From positions 1 to 24,885 of the IMG/VR virus record IMGVR_UViG_3300006332_000115: a stretch of DNA of 24,885 bases. One strand, given 5' to 3'. This DNA is from a virus. Every line of letters starts with the position of its first letter. The first letter of the stretch is position 1. A program made the position numbers and the translations under genes. Of this stretch, positions 921 through 8,999 are shown one piece after another. Below the pieces are notes generated by a model. The model worked only from the letters and a program-made list of their open reading frames with translations. It was not told the DNA's origin and ran no database searches.

Positions 921-2660
921 TTAAACCCAGGTAGGGACAGAGGATTTGCCTTTTTGTTGTCTTGCTTTACGCCGCATATCAATATCAAAGCCTAAAGCCA
1001 AGTGGTTAACTGATTGTTGAGGATCATCCATCCAAGCATCCATCATATCTTTCCATTCTTCTGCTTCACGTATTCTAATTGATTCATTAGCTGAGATGGA
1101 CATAGCATCTGTGAAGTATTTCACACCTTGAGCTAGGCAGTCTAATCTGTCGTCATGTTTAACTGCACCTTTTTCTCTACACATTCTACTCATTTGGTAG
1201 AATAGCATGTACATCAGTCTGAGTTCAGGTGCTTCATCTGAATTGGATTTGTAATCCCACTCAATGACACTTCTATTGACAATGAGACGATGCTGATTAA
1301 GGACAGGCTCAAGAGAATCAATAATCCTATCTTCCTTTCTGACATTTGCACGTACCTCTTCTACATCAATTGCTTGTTTAGTGTTTTGGAGATGTTTTTT
1401 AAAGAGTTCGCAAACGATTCCATCTCCGAAGTTGGTCTCAATAACGAGCTTTGTAACTCCGTACTTTCTACATCCTCTGAGTATATCGAGCAAGGTAGAA
1501 TCAGAGTACCCGTCCCTGTATGCACGCATTTCATGCAAGTATAGGAAGCCGTTTCGTTGAGATATGAATGCGGCCGCAGTCTCGTCAGTTCCTCTACCCG
1601 ACGGATCGACTGAGCATATTGTTTCTGTATAACTGGCCCACTCTCCTTGGAGTTGCATTGGAGAGTAAAAATAATCTCCCGGGAGACCGACTGTGGGTAG
1701 ATCTTTGATAACGTTTTGGGGGTCTGAGCACCAGACGGGAGCGTCGGGAGCAGACTCAGGGTTAACACTGGTGACAATAAGGTCAGCCATTTTAAGAGGA
1801 AACTTCTCTGCATCACTTAAACTTGTATCTAGTTGGAACTGAAGCATGAAGTTAGAGCGACCCATAGCTGCTTCACGCTCTATTAGGTCGTCGTTGTCAA
1901 ATCTATCTGGGTCTGTTACATCCCATTCTTCTGCAGCATTTTCCAGATCTTCAACGATCTGTGGAGCGAGTAATCCTTCATATTGACTTAGTTTAGATTT
2001 TCTTGGGTATCTTGAGGGCCAAACAAAGGGACGGTAGTTACGCTCAGATAACTTACGGTAAACAGTAAAAGTAGTCTGAGGAGTCCCGAGATAGCAAATA
2101 CGGCTATCAGCTTTCGGCGTGAGGATAGATTCAGCTTCTGTACAGAGTTGAAGTAATTTTTCACGCATCAACTCCGTCATAGAGTTTCCGGGTACTTCTA
2201 TGTCGTCTAGGACCATGAGGTCTGCACGAGAACCAGTAAGTTGCCCAGTAATACCAACGCTTTTTACGCTTGGAGCCTGATGAGGCGAGCACTGTACGTC
2301 GAAGGATATACGACTCCACCTTGCCTCGTCGCTTTTTGGTTGTAGGTGTTTTAACCATGGTGTTTCTATAATTAGTTTCTGAAGGAAGATTGACATGTTA
2401 TCTGCTCTCTCTTTGGAGGCAGATATAATCATTATCTTCTTTTCAGGATCTTTAAAGAGAGTCCAGAGGACGAAGGCTCCTGTGATCCAACTTTTGCCAA
2501 CTCCACGGAAAGCTTGGATCTGAAGACGTTTAGGTCCATTCTGAAGATAGTCTGCGATAGCATATTGAGCACGTGTTGGTGAAGGAAGGTCGAGCTGTTC
2601 CCAGAGGGCTTGTAAGAACAGCTTAAAGTCCTCTTGGAGAACTACTACGACGGACTTCAT
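921..2660 (-). CDS. terL: Terminase large subunit (T7 gp19-like)
   Basis: This 579-residue packaging motor ATPase/nuclease translocates concatemeric DNA into the prohead and cuts it. The N-terminal ATPase shows a Walker A motif FRGVGKS (51-57), a Walker B motif LMVLDDIE (148-155) and an LGT coupling motif (191-193). The C-terminal RNase H-like nuclease shows acidic residues in CSVDPSGRGTD (Asp352), VIETNFGD (Glu408, Asp413) and KHDDRLDC (Asp503, Asp504, Asp507). Length matches T7 gp19 (586). Its ATG overlaps the stop codon of the 55-residue gene upstream (ATGA), so translation is probably coupled. The final codons hold the only CCWGG site seen in the window (927-931). The likely partner is the small terminase at 5938-6192, about 3.3 kb upstream. 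Confidence 0.97.
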   Translation of the reverse strand: MKSVVVVLQEDFKLFLQALWEQLDLPSPTRAQYAIADYLQNGPKRLQIQAFRGVGKSWITGAFVLWTLFKDPEKKIMIISASKERADNMSIFLQKLIIETPWLKHLQPKSDEARWSRISFDVQCSPHQAPSVKSVGITGQLTGSRADLMVLDDIEVPGNSMTELMREKLLQLCTEAESILTPKADSRICYLGTPQTTFTVYRKLSERNYRPFVWPSRYPRKSKLSQYEGLLAPQIVEDLENAAEEWDVTDPDRFDNDDLIEREAAMGRSNFMLQFQLDTSLSDAEKFPLKMADLIVTSVNPESAPDAPVWCSDPQNVIKDLPTVGLPGDYFYSPMQLQGEWASYTETICSVDPSGRGTDETAAAFISQRNGFLYLHEMRAYRDGYSDSTLLDILRGCRKYGVTKLVIETNFGDGIVCELFKKHLQNTKQAIDVEEVRANVRKEDRIIDSLEPVLNQHRLIVNRSVIEWDYKSNSDEAPELRLMYMLFYQMSRMCREKGAVKHDDRLDCLAQGVKYFTDAMSISANESIRIREAEEWKDMMDAWMDDPQQSVNHLALGFDIDMRRKARQQKGKSSVPTWV

Positions 2661-2824
2661 TTCTTTTTAGATTCAGCTTTTTCTTTATTATAATTCTTAA
2701 GCCAGTTTCTATCGCTATCAGATATTTTCATTCCATTATTTCTCATAGCTTCAATTTTAGCTGCTTTTTGTGTATTCAAACCTTTTAGGGGTTTACCGAA
2801 CTTAAGTTTGTCTATTACGCTCAT
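2657..2824 (-). CDS. Small basic hypothetical protein (55 aa)
   Basis: A 55-residue frame is locked between its neighbours by overlaps on both sides: its ATG shares the ATGA of the 82-residue gene stop upstream, and its TGA overlaps the terminase ATG. The protein is lysine-rich, starts MSVIDKLKFGKPLKGL and ends with KKK; a central Asn/Lys stretch looks helical. No family is recognised. Position beside the large terminase suggests, but does not prove, a DNA-binding or packaging accessory. The gene is convincing because it leaves no untranslated gap in an otherwise seamless run. Confidence 0.75.
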   Translation of the reverse strand: MSVIDKLKFGKPLKGLNTQKAAKIEAMRNNGMKISDSDRNWLKNYNKEKAESKKK

Positions 2825-3069
2825 GATTTTTTAGTCCAACTATAATTACCATCAGTAAGATCCTTTGGATTAATACCTAAGCTTTTTAATAATTTTAATG
2901 TAGAATCATTACCAGCAATGCCGGGAGCAACTTCCCTTAACTTAGCTAACTTTGTATCTTCCTTAGGTGTGGATTTCTTGTTTCCTGTAAGATGTTTTTT
3001 TCTTTTCTTACCACCTTGCCCACTTCTGTTCTTCTTCTTTACCTCTTTAATCGTTCTGAGATTAGCCAT
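2821..3069 (-). CDS. Small very basic hypothetical protein (82 aa)
   Basis: The N-terminal half of this 82-residue protein is extremely basic (a KKKNRSGQGGKKRKKH stretch near residues 11-26), suggesting nucleic-acid contact. The C-terminal half is more ordinary and contains LLKSLGINPKDLTDG. It has one of the best ribosome binding sites in the window, GGAGG (plus-strand CCTCC at 3076-3080) six bases before the ATG, so it may start a translational block with the 55-residue gene and the large terminase. No family is recognised. A role as small terminase was considered, but the protein at 5938-6192 fits that better. Confidence 0.8.
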   Translation of the reverse strand: MANLRTIKEVKKKNRSGQGGKKRKKHLTGNKKSTPKEDTKLAKLREVAPGIAGNDSTLKLLKSLGINPKDLTDGNYSWTKKS

Positions 3070-3126: not shown

Positions 3127-4437
3127 TTAGAAGCCGTTCTCGAACTTTATAACATCAGTTTGTGTTTTATCTGTAAGTGCTCTTAAACGTGCTTGAGATT
3201 CTCTCATTAAATCACGATATGGAGTAGTATCAAAGTCTTGAGGTTTTGCGTAAAGTTGAGCACGTTTAGGAAATTCAATCTGTTTCTCTAAGTTATGGTA
3301 ACCGGGATTTCCGGGTGTACCTGCTCTATGATAAATTGTACTCCTTTGACCAGCAGGGTAAGTAGGTATTCTTGTACTACCTCTTGCGGCTACAATATTT
3401 CTAGGATCATTACCATGATACATATGTTTTTTAGCATCATCTTCAATCCTCTTCAACCATTTAGCCATTCCATTTTTTTTAGGTTTACCAGCAGCAGTAT
3501 ATAAATAAGCTTGCTTTAATTTACTAGAAACATGGATTGGTGTTAAATGATGTGCTTCCATACCTCTACTATTTATATATTTCCACTTCTTCAAACCTCT
3601 TGCATTTAATGCAGGATCTGTAACTGATTTAATTCTTAAATTACGAAGTTCAACTTCTGCTGCTTCTGATACAGTACTTTTTAATTGAAAATTAGGTTCT
3701 TTACTTCTACCTTTATTGACATATCTAAATCCATGTTTTTTAGTCATTTCTTTAGGAGTCAAACCGTAGAACTCTTGTATTTGTTTACTATTCAAACCTT
3801 TTGGTGTAGCTTTCAACTCACCACTATCGAAAAGGGCATTTAATCGTTTATTTTCCCTAGCTTTTAAAGAGAATTGTCCTAAAGAAAGTTCTTCAATCCT
3901 AGCTTCAATAGGAGGTATACCAGACACAGCTTCATCTACAGCTTTTCTAGTAGATTTCCTCATAGTAGCAGCAGCTTTAAGCTTACCTAGTTTAGTTCTA
4001 GGACCAACAGGTGCAGCTCCAAAACCACCACCAGTTACTAATCTACCACTTTCTAATGGACTTAGTTTATCTAATTGTCTAACAGTCTTAGCAACTTGTG
4101 CTCCTTTCTTAATAAGACCACCTGTTACAGCATCTCCAGCAAACCCACCAGTCCATTTACCTAGACGTGGATCTATACCTAATCTTTCTGCAGCCGCCTC
4201 ACCAAGTTTACCACCAGCCCAGCCACCTGCACCTAATACTTGTAAACCCTGTTTGATACCGGGTCTTTCAGCCAACCATGCAACATTTTTTAAACCGCCA
4301 CCAGCTAACCTCAAAGCATCGTCGTGCCAACCTTCTTGAGGTGCTGACCATTCTTGTAGTTTAGCAACAACATCTTTACCACCCTGCTCTACCTTATCGG
4401 CAATGCCAGATCCCCAGAGTCCTTCTTCAAACTCCAT
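3127..4437 (-). CDS. Large protein with AHH/HNH-type nuclease-like C-terminus
   Basis: This protein has 436 residues from the ATG at 4437; a TTG at 4494 would give 455. Residue numbers below follow the 455 form. The N-terminal third (about 62-165) is glycine- and alanine-rich with weakly hydrophobic stretches, resembling membrane- or ejection-associated regions. The middle is charged and helical. The C-terminus carries EAHHLTPIH (313-321), then GNDPRNIVAARG (361-372), His389 and GYHNLEKQ (398-405), the order of histidines and Asn expected of the HNH/Endo VII superfamily, AHH subtype. Zinc-binding CxxC pairs are absent. It sits between small and large terminase where T7 has only lysis accessory genes. 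It may be a packaging-associated nuclease or a protein carried in the virion and ejected; the sequence does not decide. The 4437 start avoids overlapping the preceding gene. Confidence 0.7.
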   Translation of the reverse strand: MEFEEGLWGSGIADKVEQGGKDVVAKLQEWSAPQEGWHDDALRLAGGGLKNVAWLAERPGIKQGLQVLGAGGWAGGKLGEAAAERLGIDPRLGKWTGGFAGDAVTGGLIKKGAQVAKTVRQLDKLSPLESGRLVTGGGFGAAPVGPRTKLGKLKAAATMRKSTRKAVDEAVSGIPPIEARIEELSLGQFSLKARENKRLNALFDSGELKATPKGLNSKQIQEFYGLTPKEMTKKHGFRYVNKGRSKEPNFQLKSTVSEAAEVELRNLRIKSVTDPALNARGLKKWKYINSRGMEAHHLTPIHVSSKLKQAYLYTAAGKPKKNGMAKWLKRIEDDAKKHMYHGNDPRNIVAARGSTRIPTYPAGQRSTIYHRAGTPGNPGYHNLEKQIEFPKRAQLYAKPQDFDTTPYRDLMRESQARLRALTDKTQTDVIKFENGF

Positions 4438-4453
4438 GATCTCTGCTTGTTCT

Positions 4454-5383
4454 TTAGTTGGATTCACGGCGATTAGATTTGAATAATTGACCAATGTTTG
4501 TACCAGCTTTAGTATCTACATTACTCTTGTTTCTCCATTCACCACTTCTATGTCTATCACGGAGTGCTAATAGTTCTTCATCTTTAAATAATCCTGATTT
4601 AGCAGCTGCATTATTAGATTTAGTTAAGAAGCTTTGATCTTCACGGTTCTTTTCAGCTTCTCTTGCTTCTACTTCACTTTGATAATGATCTTGCTCTCCA
4701 GAGTCTTTATATATACTCTCGTTTTCTGCGTTTGCACTGTCTGATTCAGCAGAAACTGGATTAGTATTAATCGGGTTTACTCCAGTAACGTTTTCCGGAT
4801 CAGACTGACTTACTGCAGCGTAATGTCCTCCTAGTTTTTGTATTGTACCTTCAGACAACCATCTATTATAAGATTCTCCTTGAATATCATTTCGTTGAAG
4901 ACTTATTAAATTATTTAAAGAGAAATCAAATTCTGCATTTACTTTTGCAAGTTTTGCTGCTCTAAGAAGATTGGTTTGGTGTAGTACTGTTTGTTGATCT
5001 GACCAAGGGCTATCAAACATAACACCTTCCTGCACAGCAGGGTTAAATTCATCACTAGTTCTCAAATCTGGTGGTATTGGATTTATTTGAGCTTCATTAG
5101 CTTTATTCCACTCTTCTTGTTGTTTAGCAAAGTCCTCTTCTTCTTTTCTCCATCTTTCTTCTTGTGATGGTTGCTTTGTAATACCTTTACGTTTTGGTTG
5201 ACTTACTTCAGATGGAGTAGCATCCATACCATATAGTAATTGTCTTCCATAAAGATCTAATTGCTGTTGAAGATTTTTACCTCTTCGATCTAAATCTTTA
5301 ATTGTCCAATCAATTAATTCATCACCCTTACCTTTTGTTTTAGGTTTACGTTGAGTGACTTTCCTTAAATCTCTTCTTCCCAT
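4454..5383 (-). CDS. Charged, probably disordered hypothetical protein (309 aa)
   Basis: This 309-residue protein has no recognised family. It opens with a basic segment (GRRDLRKVTQRKPKTKGKG), follows with Lys/Glu/Gln-rich stretches likely to be helical or coiled-coil (about 75-100), a more ordered central part (about 120-190), and a long Ser/Asn/Glu-rich linker (about 195-250) before a basic C-terminus. There is no signal peptide or membrane segment. Its ATG lies three bases after the HNH gene stop and lacks a Shine-Dalgarno sequence, suggesting coupled translation. The nuclease-like gene follows 16 bases downstream (or overlaps by 41 if its TTG start is used), so the two may act together. 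Candidate roles are scaffold, adaptor or minor virion protein, all inference. Confidence 0.75.
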   Translation of the reverse strand: MGRRDLRKVTQRKPKTKGKGDELIDWTIKDLDRRGKNLQQQLDLYGRQLLYGMDATPSEVSQPKRKGITKQPSQEERWRKEEEDFAKQQEEWNKANEAQINPIPPDLRTSDEFNPAVQEGVMFDSPWSDQQTVLHQTNLLRAAKLAKVNAEFDFSLNNLISLQRNDIQGESYNRWLSEGTIQKLGGHYAAVSQSDPENVTGVNPINTNPVSAESDSANAENESIYKDSGEQDHYQSEVEAREAEKNREDQSFLTKSNNAAAKSGLFKDEELLALRDRHRSGEWRNKSNVDTKAGTNIGQLFKSNRRESN

Positions 5384-5385
5384 AG

Positions 5386-5664
5386 TTAATTAATGTGTGA
5401 TAAAATAAGTTCCTCTCGATACGGTTTGTGTCCAAACGTATCTCTCATCCAGTCCCTCCAGTGTCTACTACCCTTCTCCTGATTACATCTCCTACAAGCT
5501 GGTACCATATTCTTTGTAATTGTTTCTCCACCGTTGCATTTGGGTTTAACATGATCGAGTGTAAGTTGATTAATTTCATAATGGGTTCCACAATAAACGC
5601 ATGTACAATTAAAGTGCTCTTTAACAGCTCTTCTCCAGAGCTTTTTAGCGTCAGGACTTGTCAT
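5386..5664 (-). CDS. HNH endonuclease (zinc-binding, small)
   Basis: This 92-residue HNH homing-type or packaging-associated endonuclease is identified by CVYC (Cys22, Cys25), LDHVKP (Asp37, His38), NMVPACRRCNQEKG (Asn52, Cys57, Cys60, Asn61). The two CxxC pairs bind structural zinc and Asp-His with Asn form the beta-beta-alpha-metal site. The chosen ATG at 5664 yields the usual short N-terminus; a GTG at 5715 would add 17 residues, overlaps the upstream stop (GTGA) and has AGAGG six bases upstream, so it remains possible. HNH enzymes next to terminase genes assist cutting at packaging in several tailed phages, but freestanding mobile HNH genes are also common in cyanophages; the sequence does not distinguish these. 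Confidence 0.88.
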   Translation of the reverse strand: MTSPDAKKLWRRAVKEHFNCTCVYCGTHYEINQLTLDHVKPKCNGGETITKNMVPACRRCNQEKGSRHWRDWMRDTFGHKPYREELILSHIN

Positions 5665-5711
5665 GGTTATTAGATTGTATAAGTAATGTTTAGGAGTGGG
5701 TAGTAGTGGGG

Positions 5712-5963
5712 TCACGCTTTGCCTCTATTTCTGGCTCGGTTTTTTGATTGGGCTTCGAGTTTGGTGCCGCCGCCTTTTTTATGCGAGACATCCAACTTAT
5801 CACCATTGCCATAAGTTCCTCTTCTTCTATTTTCAGCATTTAACGCTGTTCTTTTCCGAATCTGAAGAGCAGATGAATTAAACTTCTTTTGATAAGCGTT
5901 CTTTTTAGCTCTTGCTTTTGGGTGGGACTTATAATAGTCAGACGTGTTCAGTCCGCTTGCCAT
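5712..5963 (-). CDS. Small basic protein resembling cyanophage HNH-like family
   Basis: This protein has 83 residues from the ATG at 5963, which has GGAG (plus-strand CTCC, 5969-5972) five bases upstream; a TTG at 5981 is a poorer alternative. It overlaps the end of the small terminase gene by 26 bases. The sequence has a Lys/Arg/Asn-rich core (YQKKFN, RKRTALNAENRRRG) followed by NGDKLDVSHKKGG and a tail of alternating Lys/Arg/Asn. I recall short cyanophage proteins with the same layout and GDxxDVDH in place of GDKLDVSH; those look like minimal HNH-type proteins. Here the central acidic residue is Ser, so if it was ever a nuclease it may be inactive. Nucleic-acid binding is likely from charge. 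Confidence 0.75.
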   Translation of the reverse strand: MASGLNTSDYYKSHPKARAKKNAYQKKFNSSALQIRKRTALNAENRRRGTYGNGDKLDVSHKKGGGTKLEAQSKNRARNRGKA

Positions 5964-6192
5964 ATAATCTCCGTTGTACAAGGTCAGGGTCGATTTGAGG
6001 CATTACAGCTGCCAATTTATCTAATGGATTACCTTCATAAGCAACACCACTGATATCATTTTTAACCAGCCAATCACAGGCTGCCTTTAATTCATGAGCA
6101 GAAGCTTCTCCACTCTTTATTCTTTTAAGGAATTCAGTTGTAACGAGCCGATGTAGCTCGTTAAACTGTTCTTCCGTAGCTCTTTTAGCCAT
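5938..6192 (-). CDS. terS: Terminase small subunit (DNA maturase A, T7 gp18-like)
   Basis: This 84-residue protein starts MAKRATEEQFNELHRLVTTE and contains RIKSGEASAHELKAACDWL followed by KNDISG, the helix pattern of podovirus small terminases, which recognise the packaging site and hand DNA to the large subunit. Length matches T7 gp18 (89). Its ATG overlaps by one base the TAA of the 53-residue gene upstream (TAATG). In T7, gp18 and gp19 are separated only by short lysis genes; here about 3.3 kb and six genes intervene. The assignment rests on pattern and position rather than on an active site, since the family has none. Confidence 0.78.
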   Translation of the reverse strand: MAKRATEEQFNELHRLVTTEFLKRIKSGEASAHELKAACDWLVKNDISGVAYEGNPLDKLAAVMPQIDPDLVQRRLYGKRTEHV

Positions 6193-6353
6193 TATGTTTT
6201 AGGAAATAACTGTTTCTCCAAAAATTCTACTGCTTTATCATCCACAGTGTTATCGGTAGTGGAAACAAGCTTCTTTAAAATATCAACGATCAGTTTTTTA
6301 ACTGATTCAGAAGTTGCGAATTTGAGTAGGATAGGCTTAATTAGTAGAATCAT
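6192..6353 (-). CDS. Small hydrophobic/amphipathic protein (53 aa)
   Basis: This 53-residue frame begins with a hydrophobic stretch (MILLIKPILLKFA), continues with a Lys-rich amphipathic segment (SVKKLIVDILKKLV) and ends with an acidic region (TDNTVDDKAVEFLEK). It overlaps its neighbours on both sides, ATGA with the gene upstream and TAATG with the small terminase, which strongly supports it as a gene. I recall similar short proteins in marine cyanophages, annotated as hypothetical. Membrane association is plausible; a lysis or virion role is speculation. Confidence 0.8.
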   Translation of the reverse strand: MILLIKPILLKFATSESVKKLIVDILKKLVSTTDNTVDDKAVEFLEKQLFPKT

Positions 6354-7036
6354 TTCTTCTTAGTGGGTTGTTTTTGTTTATCTTGTGCTGATAAAACAGC
6401 AATTGGCACTACATCATTACAAAGTGAGACAAAATCAGTTCCCGGTTTAAGTGTAAAACCTCTTTGCATGAATCTTGTGCAGTTATCTATGCGAACAAGC
6501 TCATAATCGAGCCGTTGTTTTTGTAATTCCTTCTCAGCAATCTTTTTACATATATCAACAGACTTTCTATCTAGTGGTACCATGAAAGACATCTGTACTC
6601 CCCAGTTATGAGTTATATTATAAGACTCAGGATCGTACGGTTTACCTTCAGTACCTAGATAGTAGGGTGAAAGGCTCATAACGGGACCGTTACAAACCAC
6701 TCCCCTACCGTATTGTTGCCGTGAAACTCCAGAATTGTTCTGGAATTGCACAGCTTGGTTCGTTACATTTCCTGTCGCAGCAGCTGAAGTCTGAGGGTTT
6801 AACACTGTATTCCCATCTTCAGCTTTAACTGGTACTCCTGCTCCTATTGAGAGAAGACTGACAAGGAAGTAGTTAGCGAAGTTGTATCTATTGTTCTGTT
6901 TATATCTGTTACTTCGATTACTCCTGCAGCTCTGTTCACTATTTCTAGTTGAAAGTTCTGACCGGGAGTTGTTATATCGAAATTTGTTGCATGATCGTTT
7001 ATATGACCTGAAGGGGTTATATTGTGACCAGTCCAA
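6350..7036 (-). CDS. Exported conserved cyanophage protein, start uncertain
   Basis: The part downstream of residue 73 looks like a real, conserved protein: TGNVTNQAVQFQNNSGVSRQQYG, a Cys in VVCNGP, LSPYYLGTEG, NWGVQMSFMVPLD, then a C-terminal helical region with Cys residues and a Lys-rich tail. I recall this arrangement in hypothetical proteins of marine cyanophages. Residues 55-72 (YFLVSLLSIGAGVPVKA) read as a signal peptide core with an AxA-like end. The only in-frame ATG, at 7036, puts 53 Ser/Asn/Arg-rich residues before that core, all inside the overlapping 118-residue gene, and these look like out-of-frame translation. No ATG, GTG or TTG lies nearer. A rare start codon, a -1 frameshift from the upstream gene, or a sequence error are possible. 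Function unknown; export to membrane or periplasm is inferred. Confidence 0.7.
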   Translation of the reverse strand: MDWSQYNPFRSYKRSCNKFRYNNSRSELSTRNSEQSCRSNRSNRYKQNNRYNFANYFLVSLLSIGAGVPVKAEDGNTVLNPQTSAAATGNVTNQAVQFQNNSGVSRQQYGRGVVCNGPVMSLSPYYLGTEGKPYDPESYNITHNWGVQMSFMVPLDRKSVDICKKIAEKELQKQRLDYELVRIDNCTRFMQRGFTLKPGTDFVSLCNDVVPIAVLSAQDKQKQPTKKK

Positions 7037-7200
7037 CTGGAATAATCGCCTCCGTATACTGTGGTTTGTATGGTTTCTACGATTTGTTGAGTAGAGTTTG
7101 TAGTACTATTCATACTACCTTGGGTGAAAGCAGGGGTGACTGTATTTGCTCTAGCTGCAGCTGGAAATAGTAGCAGCAAAAATAGTAAATACTTGTTCAT
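6844..7200 (-). CDS. Secreted hypothetical protein with signal peptide (118 aa)
   Basis: This 118-residue protein has a textbook signal peptide, MNKYLLFLLLLFPAAARA, with predicted cleavage before NTVTP. The mature part is rich in Thr, Asn and Ser with alternating hydrophobic residues, suggesting beta structure (for example QQIVETIQTTVYGG, NFQLEIVNRAAGVIEVTDI). The start overlaps the holin gene stop (ATGA). Its last 193 bases overlap the next gene in another frame if that gene begins at 7036. I recall similar paired proteins in cyanophages without known function. An envelope or lysis role is suggested by its place after a holin candidate. Confidence 0.8.
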   Translation of the reverse strand: MNKYLLFLLLLFPAAARANTVTPAFTQGSMNSTTNSTQQIVETIQTTVYGGDYSSWTGHNITPSGHINDHATNFDITTPGQNFQLEIVNRAAGVIEVTDINRTIDTTSLTTSLSVFSQ

Positions 7201-7499
7201 TCTGGTTTCTTTTTAGCCATAGGACAATTTACTGGACCTTGTTTTTTATTGTTGCCTGTAGTAAGGCCAAAGGTCGCTAATGCTCCAGTAAAGACACTAG
7301 CAACGAACGTGATATCAGAATTACCTGACTTCTTAACCATAGGTATTTCTACGTAGTTCATTGTGATTATAAAACCACTCCAAACTACAACACCTAAACG
7401 TACAAATGTACCAAGAATCTGTATTTGATGTTCTTGATCTTCTGCCGCATCCTTCAGTTTACTCAGAAGGTTTTTTGGTTTTTCCTGTGGGGTTTCCAT
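7197..7499 (-). CDS. Two-transmembrane protein, holin candidate
   Basis: This protein has 100 residues from the ATG at 7499; a TTG at 7526 would add nine. The N-terminal part (METPQEKPKNLLSKLKDAAED) is charged, followed by two membrane segments at about 28-50 (containing VRLGVVVWSGFIITMNYV) and 62-81 (ITFVASVFTGALATFGLTTG), with a short charged loop and a Lys-rich C-terminus. Size, two helices and basic tail fit class II holins, which form pores that start lysis; the family is also common in cyanophages as an unnamed membrane protein. It overlaps the preceding gene by 41 bases and the next by four (ATGA). No endolysin is seen in this window, so lysis function is inferred from topology and place only. 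Confidence 0.7.
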   Translation of the reverse strand: METPQEKPKNLLSKLKDAAEDQEHQIQILGTFVRLGVVVWSGFIITMNYVEIPMVKKSGNSDITFVASVFTGALATFGLTTGNNKKQGPVNCPMAKKKPE

Positions 7500-7947
7500 T
7501 AAATTTCTTTTGTATTCGTTTTGCAATCTGCATAATGATAGGTTTCATTACTTTAACAGTTTGCTTAAATAACGAAGTCACAGTAAGGGTGGCTATAACG
7601 CTCACTGACGCTGTAGTTCCTGCAGTCACGAGTATTTCTTCTTTGGGAACTGGAAACGTCAGGTCAGTGAATGGTATATCTATACGTTTAACTTCAGCAG
7701 CTTCTTGCTTTGGTTTGGGTGGTTTACCTTCTTGTTTTCTTGCTAGTTCTTCTTCCATAATCTCTTCCAAATCAGCTGTAATAACACCTGTAGGTGGTGC
7801 TAAAACACTTGGAGCTACAACTATAGTCGGAAAACTAGGTATATCTGCTGTAGGTTGCTCTAATGTCGGTGTTGCTATATCTATAGCACCCGGAATAGTC
7901 AAAGCATCAGGTAGAGTTATAGAAGGAAAGAGTGGTTCATCTCCCAT
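7459..7947 (-). CDS. Proline-rich protein with one membrane segment
   Basis: This 162-residue protein has an N-terminal half rich in Pro/Ile/Thr (repeating P-x-x-x-P spacing, about 8-53), a charged middle (60-90, EEIMEEELARKQEGKPPKPK), a conserved-looking IPFTDLTFPVPKEE stretch (91-104) and one hydrophobic segment (about 105-127, rich in Val, Thr and Ala), followed by a basic amphipathic tail. I recall comparable proteins in marine cyanophages, listed as structural or hypothetical. It starts five bases after the halogenase-like gene. The Pro-rich arm and single helix could span periplasm and membrane like a spanin, but there is no signal peptide or lipobox, so this is only a possibility. Confidence 0.72.
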   Translation of the reverse strand: MGDEPLFPSITLPDALTIPGAIDIATPTLEQPTADIPSFPTIVVAPSVLAPPTGVITADLEEIMEEELARKQEGKPPKPKQEAAEVKRIDIPFTDLTFPVPKEEILVTAGTTASVSVIATLTVTSLFKQTVKVMKPIIMQIAKRIQKKFNGNPTGKTKKPSE

Positions 7948-7952
7948 ATTTA

Positions 7953-8999
7953 TTAAGTATTATTTTCCCAAATATCAAATGATTGCTTCCTCCATTGACC
8001 GTACATTCCTCCTTGAATAGGTTTTTCAATAGGAGTGAAAGGTAGTGTTTTGACATAGTTCCAAAAAGGACTATCAAATTTTGAACCTGTCTTGTAATGC
8101 CATAAAACAAAATTTGCAATCGTATCAACTTCTTTATGCAGTAAATGTAAGCATTGAGGAATGTCTACCTTGTTGATAAAACGATCATAACCAACCCTCG
8201 CAATATATAAATACAACCCCGTAGCTGTAGCTTCTAACGGCTCGATGAATGCACACTGATTACCATTTAACAAAGTACGTTCACCAACAAAGGGATTAAA
8301 AGAACAGTAATTGTCAAACTTCATTGAATGTTCTATTTCTTCTACACCAAAGCGTTCTTGGAAGTCTTTAGTTGCTTCTTTCTTAGAAGTCAAATCTGCG
8401 TTATATAGATAACCAAGACTTAATTTATCTTCAGTAGGAACAACAAAAGTCCAACCATTAGGAGTTGCTTGTGCTTCAGTCCAGAGTAAATCTCTTTTAG
8501 GTAAGCTTGCAAGTAAAACGGAATTAATAGGATTAACAATAGTATCTAAGTTATCTTTGTCTCTAGCCTTTCGACCACGACAATCAATAATAAAATCAGC
8601 GTCAATTTCTTTTTCTGGATCAGTGATTTTTTGTTCTATAACATTAAACTTTCCACTAGATAAAACAGCATCACTTAATTTCTTAGGAGTGTAGTGAATC
8701 GATACTTGATCCATTGAGTAGAAGTCATGAAAAATATGATCTTTCTTTGTACCCCAATTCTTATATAGAACCCCTGTTTTTAATGTTGCTCCAATAGGAT
8801 TATTAAACCAATTAAAATCTAAACAAGTAGAAATTAACCCTGTTACAGGGATTGTTGTTCCTTGTCCAACTCTTTCTATTGGGTGGTGTTCAGAGTCATG
8901 ATATAAATCAATTTCTAAATCTGGTTCGTATAGCCTCCAATGAAGTGCTGAAACGCAACCAGCATTACCAGCACCAATAACTGCTAGTTTATTTACCAA
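7953..8999 (-). CDS. Flavin-dependent tryptophan halogenase-like protein
   Basis: This 348-residue flavoprotein shows a Rossmann FAD motif GAGNAG (9-14) after KLAVI, a VGQGTTIPV segment (44-52), ATLKTGVLYKNWG (71-83) with Lys74 at the place of the catalytic lysine that forms or positions hypohalous acid, NGWTFVVP (181-188) standing where canonical enzymes have GWxWxIP, and FIEPLEAT (251-258) containing the equivalent of the substrate-side Glu (Glu256). It is clearly shorter than typical tryptophan halogenases (over 500), and the second Trp of GWxWxIP is Phe, so activity and substrate are open. PrnA-like genes are known from T4-like cyanophages. The start is a TTG at 8999 overlapping the preceding small gene by 11 bases; no in-frame ATG lies near. 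It occupies an accessory slot between tail genes and the membrane proteins. Confidence 0.85.
   Translation of the reverse strand: MVNKLAVIGAGNAGCVSALHWRLYEPDLEIDLYHDSEHHPIERVGQGTTIPVTGLISTCLDFNWFNNPIGATLKTGVLYKNWGTKKDHIFHDFYSMDQVSIHYTPKKLSDAVLSSGKFNVIEQKITDPEKEIDADFIIDCRGRKARDKDNLDTIVNPINSVLLASLPKRDLLWTEAQATPNGWTFVVPTEDKLSLGYLYNADLTSKKEATKDFQERFGVEEIEHSMKFDNYCSFNPFVGERTLLNGNQCAFIEPLEATATGLYLYIARVGYDRFINKVDIPQCLHLLHKEVDTIANFVLWHYKTGSKFDSPFWNYVKTLPFTPIEKPIQGGMYGQWRKQSFDIWENNT

Follow-up and report, generated by a model that had tools for sequence, protein, structure and literature searches.

The interval between a conserved HNH endonuclease gene and the large terminase gene (TerL) of marine T7-like cyanophages is a hypervariable slot. 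Comparison of the encoded proteins shows, at the level of their sequences, that a slot protein consists of a constant carrier module joined to an N- or C-terminal domain drawn from many unrelated ones, and that these domains are exchanged by recombination at the module borders. Many of these variable domains are supported as His-Me-finger (HNH-type) nucleases, with the domain encoded in the window as a divergent member. We found no description of the slot in the open-access literature (subscription papers lay outside the search), and P-SSP7 gene 50 and its counterparts in related isolates are listed as uncharacterised in their annotations.

The window is the whole stretch of DNA that was analysed, a virus fragment of 24,885 bases (IMG/VR record IMGVR_UViG_3300006332_000115) with its genes on the minus strand. 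These encode the major capsid protein (PF21703), tail and internal virion proteins, a T7-type tail fibre (PF03906), a tryptophan halogenase (PF04820), the small terminase (TerS), a 109-aa HNH endonuclease, the 309-aa and 455-aa proteins considered here, two small ORFs, TerL and a transaldolase. Because its TerL and the one encoded by Synechococcus phage S-CBP1 share 83% identity, we take the window to be a fragment of a marine T7-like cyanophage. The first-pass annotation had placed two ORFs, of 309 and 436–455 aa, between TerS and TerL, and both were found there, on the minus strand; its picture did not extend to the HNH gene directly before this pair, or to the two small basic ORFs after it. 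The genes of the region are as follows.

5938–6192, minus strand: small terminase (TerS), the upstream border of the region (PF11123, 4.3e-16; phrog_891)
5712–5981, minus strand: 89-aa phrog_6437 protein (E 6.8e-24)
5386–5715, minus strand: 109-aa HNH endonuclease with a GTG start, the conserved anchor upstream of the slot (PF14279, 1.6e-12)
4454–5383, minus strand: 309-aa charged companion protein of no family (ORF), mosaic among relatives
3127–4494, minus strand: nuclease-like protein of the variable slot, 455 aa from TTG 4494 (ORF and homologue alignment)
2821–3069, minus strand: small basic 82-aa ORF after the nuclease-like gene, mosaic (ORF comparison)
2657–2824, minus strand: small basic 55-aa ORF
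921–2660, minus strand: large terminase (TerL), the downstream border of the slot (83% identity over its full length to the S-CBP1 terminase)

Third-position GC is 0.38 in TerL (921–2660) and 0.33 in the HNH gene (5386–5715), against 0.16–0.19 in the 309-aa, 455-aa and internal virion genes. Across the three codon positions, GC is 0.52/0.44/0.19 in the 309-aa gene and 0.52/0.38/0.16 in the 455-aa gene, similar to an internal virion gene. Elsewhere in this late region, the tryptophan halogenase family protein lies at 7953–8999 (minus strand; PF04820, E 7.9e-29), and the related contig L003 has one too. Two further minus-strand ORFs, at 6350–7036 and 6844–7200, overlap by about 190 bases in different frames, with the same overlap in L002 and L003, and the shorter of the two (6844–7200) matches DUF6322.

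Contigs were gathered via the HNH gene, relatives of which occur in 80 contigs at 64–98% identity, and via TerL, giving 116 distinct contigs with both anchors; the slot tables omit L001, L012, L018 and L102, and the HNH anchor was not detectable in L006 (NATL1A-7). An ORF of 200 aa or more occupies the slot in 111 of the 116 contigs, and one of 150–199 aa in two; three contigs have none. The HNH gene directly adjoins TerL, with no slot gene between them, in L076, L090 and L179, which are natural empty sites. The 161 slot proteins of at least 150 aa fell into 115 clusters and 95 of them (59%) were singletons, compared with 67 of 274 non-slot proteins (24%) from the same contigs with the TerL cluster excluded (two contigs fetched twice, L136 and L146, were left out of the count). 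Relative to the window, HNH has a median identity of 70% and TerL one of 82%, whereas the slot protein is often unalignable. This hypervariability across cyanophages had been missed by the first-pass annotation, which viewed a single protein. Proteins in the same slot of named relatives include P-SSP7 gp50 (568 aa) and those of NATL1A-7 (505 aa), S-CBP1 (487 aa), WH11-B (455 aa) and S-RIP2 (271 aa), while the slot of Syn5 contains gp53, gp54 and gp58, which are annotated as structural proteins and fell in no multi-member cluster. P-SSP10 (L021) has a transaldolase gene in the slot (3340–4005) and, after TerL, a 573-aa protein that by eye is of the slot type (5932–7653).

The large protein of the window can start at TTG 4494 (455 aa), GTG 4467 (446 aa) or ATG 4437 (436 aa). 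Since homologues start shortly before the stretch they share around F22, GTG 4467 is probably the best-fitting start; residues are numbered here on the 455-aa form, and its parts are as follows.

4045–4449, minus strand: constant N-terminal carrier module, residues 16–150 of 455 (30 of the 32 invariant columns of alignment A1 lie at residues 22–130)
4420–4443, minus strand: N-terminal tag EIMEFEEG (sequence)
3160–3684, minus strand: variable C-terminal His-rich nuclease-like domain, residues 271–445 (alignment with L002 and sibling profile)
3547–3552, minus strand: H315-H316, the HH pair that lines up with the invariant HH of the siblings (profile alignment)
3397–3414, minus strand: GNDPRN, residues 361–366, aligned with the sibling GNxxxN (profile alignment)
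3328–3330, minus strand: H389, candidate third metal or catalytic His, with a spacing unlike the siblings (translation)
3295–3297, minus strand: H400, candidate fourth His (translation)
3133–3156, minus strand: C-terminal tag DVIKFENG (sequence)

The 455-aa protein matches no family in Pfam, PHROGs, NCBIfam or PADLOC and has no relative by tblastn among 50,697 phage records, and a PDB sequence search gave a single, spurious match (E 0.17). Its homologue on the L002 contig has 462 aa and is 77% identical, with purifying selection in the C domain (dN/dS 0.41 over 173 codons). For the nuclease domain of the window itself, scans with short conserved peptides, which can miss relatives, gave L002 as the sole viral match and no relative among 251 pattern hits in bacterial genomes; a degenerate DNA pattern, with the same limitation, recovered the L002 contig plus a single coincidental match within an unrelated frame.

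The N-terminal module is rich in Gly and Ala (family mean 30%, against 14% in control ORFs), as had been noted for the N-terminal third of the protein, and it is not transmembrane-like (the mean of 19-residue hydropathy maxima is 0.88). The likeness to ejected virion proteins proposed alongside was not supported: profiles of the N-terminal module and of the C-terminal module described below, run against the ORFs of the window and the P-SSP7 genome, found slot proteins only (best other E 0.46), with no match to internal virion proteins from either source. Among the minus-strand ORFs of the window, the terminal tag is present only at the two ends of the 455-aa protein. It occurs in 10 of 16 clade-A proteins (six of these via the common N-module) and in 1 of 267 controls, an enrichment that is post hoc because the tag was defined by inspecting clade-A proteins; it is nearly absent outside this clade, with 11 of 214 slot ORFs carrying it overall.

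The large proteins of the window's clade have about 130 N-terminal residues in common, beyond which little aligns except the position of the HH pair (alignment A1). In L026 and L039, identity is 81% in the N-module against 15% in the C-part, and between the window protein and L026 it is 42% against 16%. The DNA of L026 and L039 shows where these changes fall: identity is 90% across the HNH gene, 91% along a 359-bp part of the N-module, 98% immediately after the stop codon and 97% in TerL, with breaks in the companion gene, in the C domain and in the small ORF. A second carrier is the C-terminal module of P-SSP7 gp50, which is common to 11 full-length slot proteins with differing N-terminal parts. 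Module scans found the C-module in 44 contigs and the N-module in 26 (27 proteins including that of the window). The N-module begins by residue 75 in all 27 of its proteins, and all 44 C-modules are situated towards the C-terminus; TerL follows downstream of 40 of the 44 C-module and 24 of the 27 N-module proteins, with most of the exceptions having no TerL on the fetched stretch. Leaving out five of the 71 module proteins as truncated, the variable parts of the remaining 66 make up 30 families, of which 14 occur solely with the N-module, 15 solely with the C-module and one with both, the last being a distant match (22–23% over 162–166 residues, E 4.6e-7 to 3.8e-5). The combination of a constant module with interchangeable domains by which polymorphic toxins are recognised is present, in two modules, 66 proteins, 30 families and the DNA break points. 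A short-peptide scan of bacterial genomes for the C-module, which can miss relatives, gave none in 78 pattern matches. Over about 100 residues, the C-module is 33–34% identical to a large Campylobacter-phage protein whose gene adjoins a baseplate tail-tube junction gene. A C-module relative of 1159 aa in Campylobacter phage CP220 (L241, 2825–6304) is annotated as an endolysin and adjoins a baseplate tail-tube junction gene; this protein has no Pfam match.

To assess the nuclease character of the variable domains, eight seeds were iterated on the slot proteins, giving overlapping families of 4 to 31 members. At E ≤ 1e-3, the resulting profiles matched none of 1,016 non-slot ORFs, 240 reversed proteins or 240 shuffled proteins. 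They match 18 of the 30 module-linked families (E ≤ 1e-2), and a slot protein matching them is present in 52 of the 116 contigs, the window's own protein not being among these. The slot protein of L070 is an ordinary HNH protein (PF01844, above cut-off), and S45C4 is close to one (HNH_4, E 0.0042, below cut-off); a list of His patterns compiled by eye was excluded from these counts. Pfam identified no DNA-binding domain in about 30 slot proteins scanned, although Pfam also misses most of these nuclease domains.

The largest slot-domain family has an HH pair, then GNxxxN, then H-x3-H, invariant or nearly so across 24 members with a mean identity of 25%, and no Pfam family is common to its members. 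The H, H, G, N, H and H positions are invariant or nearly so in sibling alignments of both 24 members (A3, 24 of 31 segments) and 20 members (A4, 20 of 22 segments, with L163 and L080 left out). A model of the sibling domain from L097, predicted from the 20-row alignment (pLDDT 88.6, pTM 0.78), has a strand (residues 47–51) carrying H50 and H51, two inserted helices, a strand (92–96) after N91, and a helix (97–109) carrying H100 and H104, a predicted shape that fits a His-Me (HNH) finger. Foldseek returned nothing at E ≤ 0.001 for this model against the PDB, and PDB profile searches with A3 and A4 gave nothing useful. In a second-look PDB comparison, HNH-type nucleases made up 14 of the 17 rows with Z ≥ 2, headed by SciA of phage T5 (Z 4.7); these Z values are low and, for a model, only suggestive of an HNH-type fold. 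Against viral models, the best match was the slot protein of S-CBP3 (E 3.8e-5), with weaker matches to the slot proteins of P-SSP3 and S-CBP4 and then to many HNH proteins.

The window's own domain is probably a divergent His-Me nuclease, as its HH and GNxxxN match the sibling family in a profile alignment; it is placed by profile comparison only. Compared with the 24 sibling domains, it scored 79% probability with an E of 1.6e-5 (for one comparison), against 0.1–0.7% for reversed or column-shuffled versions of the family and at most 6.1% for ten non-family clusters; the family's own four clusters, taken as whole proteins, scored 0.2–19%. The His and Asn pattern seen in the first pass is therefore above chance controls, and all seven positions (H315, H316, H321, N362, N366, H389 and H400) are kept in L002. 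Conservation of the histidines among homologues, on which the first-pass annotation had made its reading depend, is seen both there and in the alignment of the HH pair with the invariant HH of the siblings. H389 and H400 are further apart than the last two His of the siblings. The structure prediction suggested earlier was informative for the sibling, in its finger-like shape, and uninformative for the window protein itself (8-row alignment, pLDDT 38).

The AHH family (PF14412) has a motif of Ala-His-His, then Asn, then two more His. The window domain resembles these toxin nucleases in having His-His, Asn and two more His in a C-terminal domain, but differs in the spacing of the last two and has no Pfam match: PF14412 did not match the window protein at E ≤ 1, and a direct search of the window record with it was negative, a search that was equally silent in 14 of 14 controls and whose sensitivity is unproven. 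The earlier assignment to the HNH/Endo VII (AHH) superfamily is thus supported by profile and sibling model as far as a nuclease-like His-Me finger domain, and not as Pfam AHH membership.

The 309-aa companion was correctly described as charged and of no known family: 31% of its residues are charged, and Pfam, PHROGs, NCBIfam and PADLOC gave no match. Its sole relative found is in L003 (67% over the first 189 residues), while the companion in L002 is a different protein that, by eye, has only a C-terminal motif in common with it. The 82-aa ORF resembles a fusion by eye, with one part as in L037 and the other as in L027 and L039, and for this reason the small genes after the slot seem to be mosaic too. 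L027 and L035 have nuclease parts that are 98% identical, yet their companions and small ORFs differ; L035 and L051 have the companion C-terminus and small ORF in common, but not the nuclease part; and between the window and L002 both neighbours of the nuclease-like gene differ. We considered the 309-aa protein as a cognate immunity protein and rejected it, since the mosaic companions do not track the nuclease part; a small downstream ORF as the immunity gene was rejected on the same ground. Neither the companions nor the small ORFs move together with the nuclease domain, which leaves no evident immunity gene.

In its anatomy, the cyanophage slot works like polymorphic toxins. The MuF toxins of temperate phages (Jamet et al. 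2017, PMC5576092) likewise have a phage-encoded constant domain near packaging genes, variable C-terminal toxin domains and a proposed delivery by the phage. The slot differs from them in its carriers (the window protein has no MuF domain by Pfam or PHROG match), in its lytic T7-like phages, and in that we found no immunity ORF travelling with the toxin. The toxin comparison drawn in the first pass gains support from the swapping of constant and variable modules. P-SSP7 gp50 (YP_214227) occupies the same slot as the window protein and likewise joins a nuclease-like GH motif to a constant module, but its module is C-terminal rather than N-terminal and its nuclease-like domain is different. The record of P-SSP7 has a single 'genomic PCR only' note, which falls within gp50 (L005, 5355–6044; P-SSP7, 40435–41124) and may reflect difficulty in cloning this part. 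As the whole of P-SSP7 was cloned in a fosmid in E. coli (PMC3350473), gp50 is not strictly unclonable.

A conserved late-region module with a freely replaced domain suggests that the module docks to a constant partner while the domain meets a changing one, and for nuclease-type domains the simplest reading would be an effector attacking the DNA of the host or of competing phages. We tentatively propose, at somewhat less than an even chance, that the two genes represent one allele of a hypervariable effector cassette, packaged and ejected, that cuts host or competitor DNA. The slot protein would be made late, together with the packaging genes, enter the head by means of its carrier module, its terminal tag, the 309-aa companion or some combination of these, and be ejected with the phage DNA to cut the DNA of the host or of competing phages; its diversity would be maintained by resistance or phage–phage competition, as in polymorphic toxins. 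Delivery in the virion is suggested by the site among packaging genes, the Gly/Ala-rich modules and the likeness of the C-module to the Campylobacter-phage protein, and also by the Syn5 structural annotation and the (post hoc) terminal tag. Against the effector reading stand the failed model of the window protein, carrier modules that match no internal virion protein in either the window or P-SSP7 and are not clearly transmembrane, the lack of an evident immunity gene, a nuclease-profile match in only 52 of 116 contigs and the weak PDB matches. The open-access literature yielded no virion, expression or activity data for slot proteins.

The most serious named rival is a homing-type hot spot, in which selfish free-standing nucleases would cut the terL-proximal region of phages without them and, in mixed infections, be copied into it, so that one replaces another at a single site. 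We consider this rather unlikely. In its favour, the slot is fixed in position and its contents are replaced between conserved flanks, and Barth et al. 2023 (PMC10448857) find nuclease genes clustered near terminase genes and describe the region upstream of the terminase as a hot spot for HEG-like endonucleases. The free-standing phage HNH homing endonucleases of that paper resemble the slot as HNH-type nucleases beside terL that are replaced between relatives; compared with them, slot proteins are larger, have constant modules and no recognised DNA-binding domain, and sit at a site that is almost always occupied. Homing needs empty targets, whereas only 3 of 116 contigs have no ORF of at least 150 aa, and this near absence of empty slots weakens the homing reading; the lack of a Pfam DNA-binding domain in the slot proteins scanned may do so too. 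Homing also leaves the constant Gly/Ala-rich modules and the companion gene unexplained.

Unlikely, too, is that the same nuclease acts without packaging in the cell where it is made, degrading host DNA or excluding a second phage. This alternative can draw on the whole of the genomic evidence for a variable nuclease, and the annotated gp3 endonuclease and gp6 exonuclease of P-SSP7 make host-DNA nucleases normal in these phages. A housekeeping nuclease need not be hypervariable, however, and the late position among packaging genes, the constant carrier modules and the terminal tag suggest docking to something conserved.

A packaging accessory, helping TerL to cut or trim DNA during packaging, is improbable. 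The slot protein adjoins TerL and an HNH gene, and the HK97 HNH works with the terminase, as cited by Barth et al. (PMC10448857). The window resembles HK97-type phages in having an HNH gene beside terL, but a packaging role fits the separate, conserved 109-aa gene (5386–5715), which already fills that place, while the 455-aa gene is a second, variable one; TerL is about 82% identical (median) where the slot protein is often unalignable, and three contigs have an empty slot. A structural decoration (head-fibre or horn genes as in Syn5, with a His motif that is incidental or binds metal) is very improbable: gp53, gp54 and gp58 of Syn5 are annotated as structural in the same slot, but they cluster with no other slot proteins; in the sibling family, with a mean identity of 25%, conservation is highest at HH, N, H and H, and the model fits a nuclease finger.

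Returning to the effector reading, its broadest form, which we regard as doubtful, is that lytic T7-like viruses of picocyanobacteria, Earth's commonest photosynthetic cells, package polymorphic nuclease effectors: a constant carrier would take any of dozens of domains into the virion, deciding co-infection contests or disabling the host, and the locus would diversify like toxins and bacteriocins. With these comparisons, gene 50 of P-SSP7 and related genes become one testable class, with a constant carrier and swappable nuclease-like domains beside the packaging motor. Even if the homing alternative wins, the slot brings together a great many divergent nuclease domains in one place, mostly missed by Pfam. 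Were the proteins delivered, phage-encoded polymorphic effectors would extend beyond temperate phages, and phage–phage competition in the ocean would gain a concrete molecular locus.
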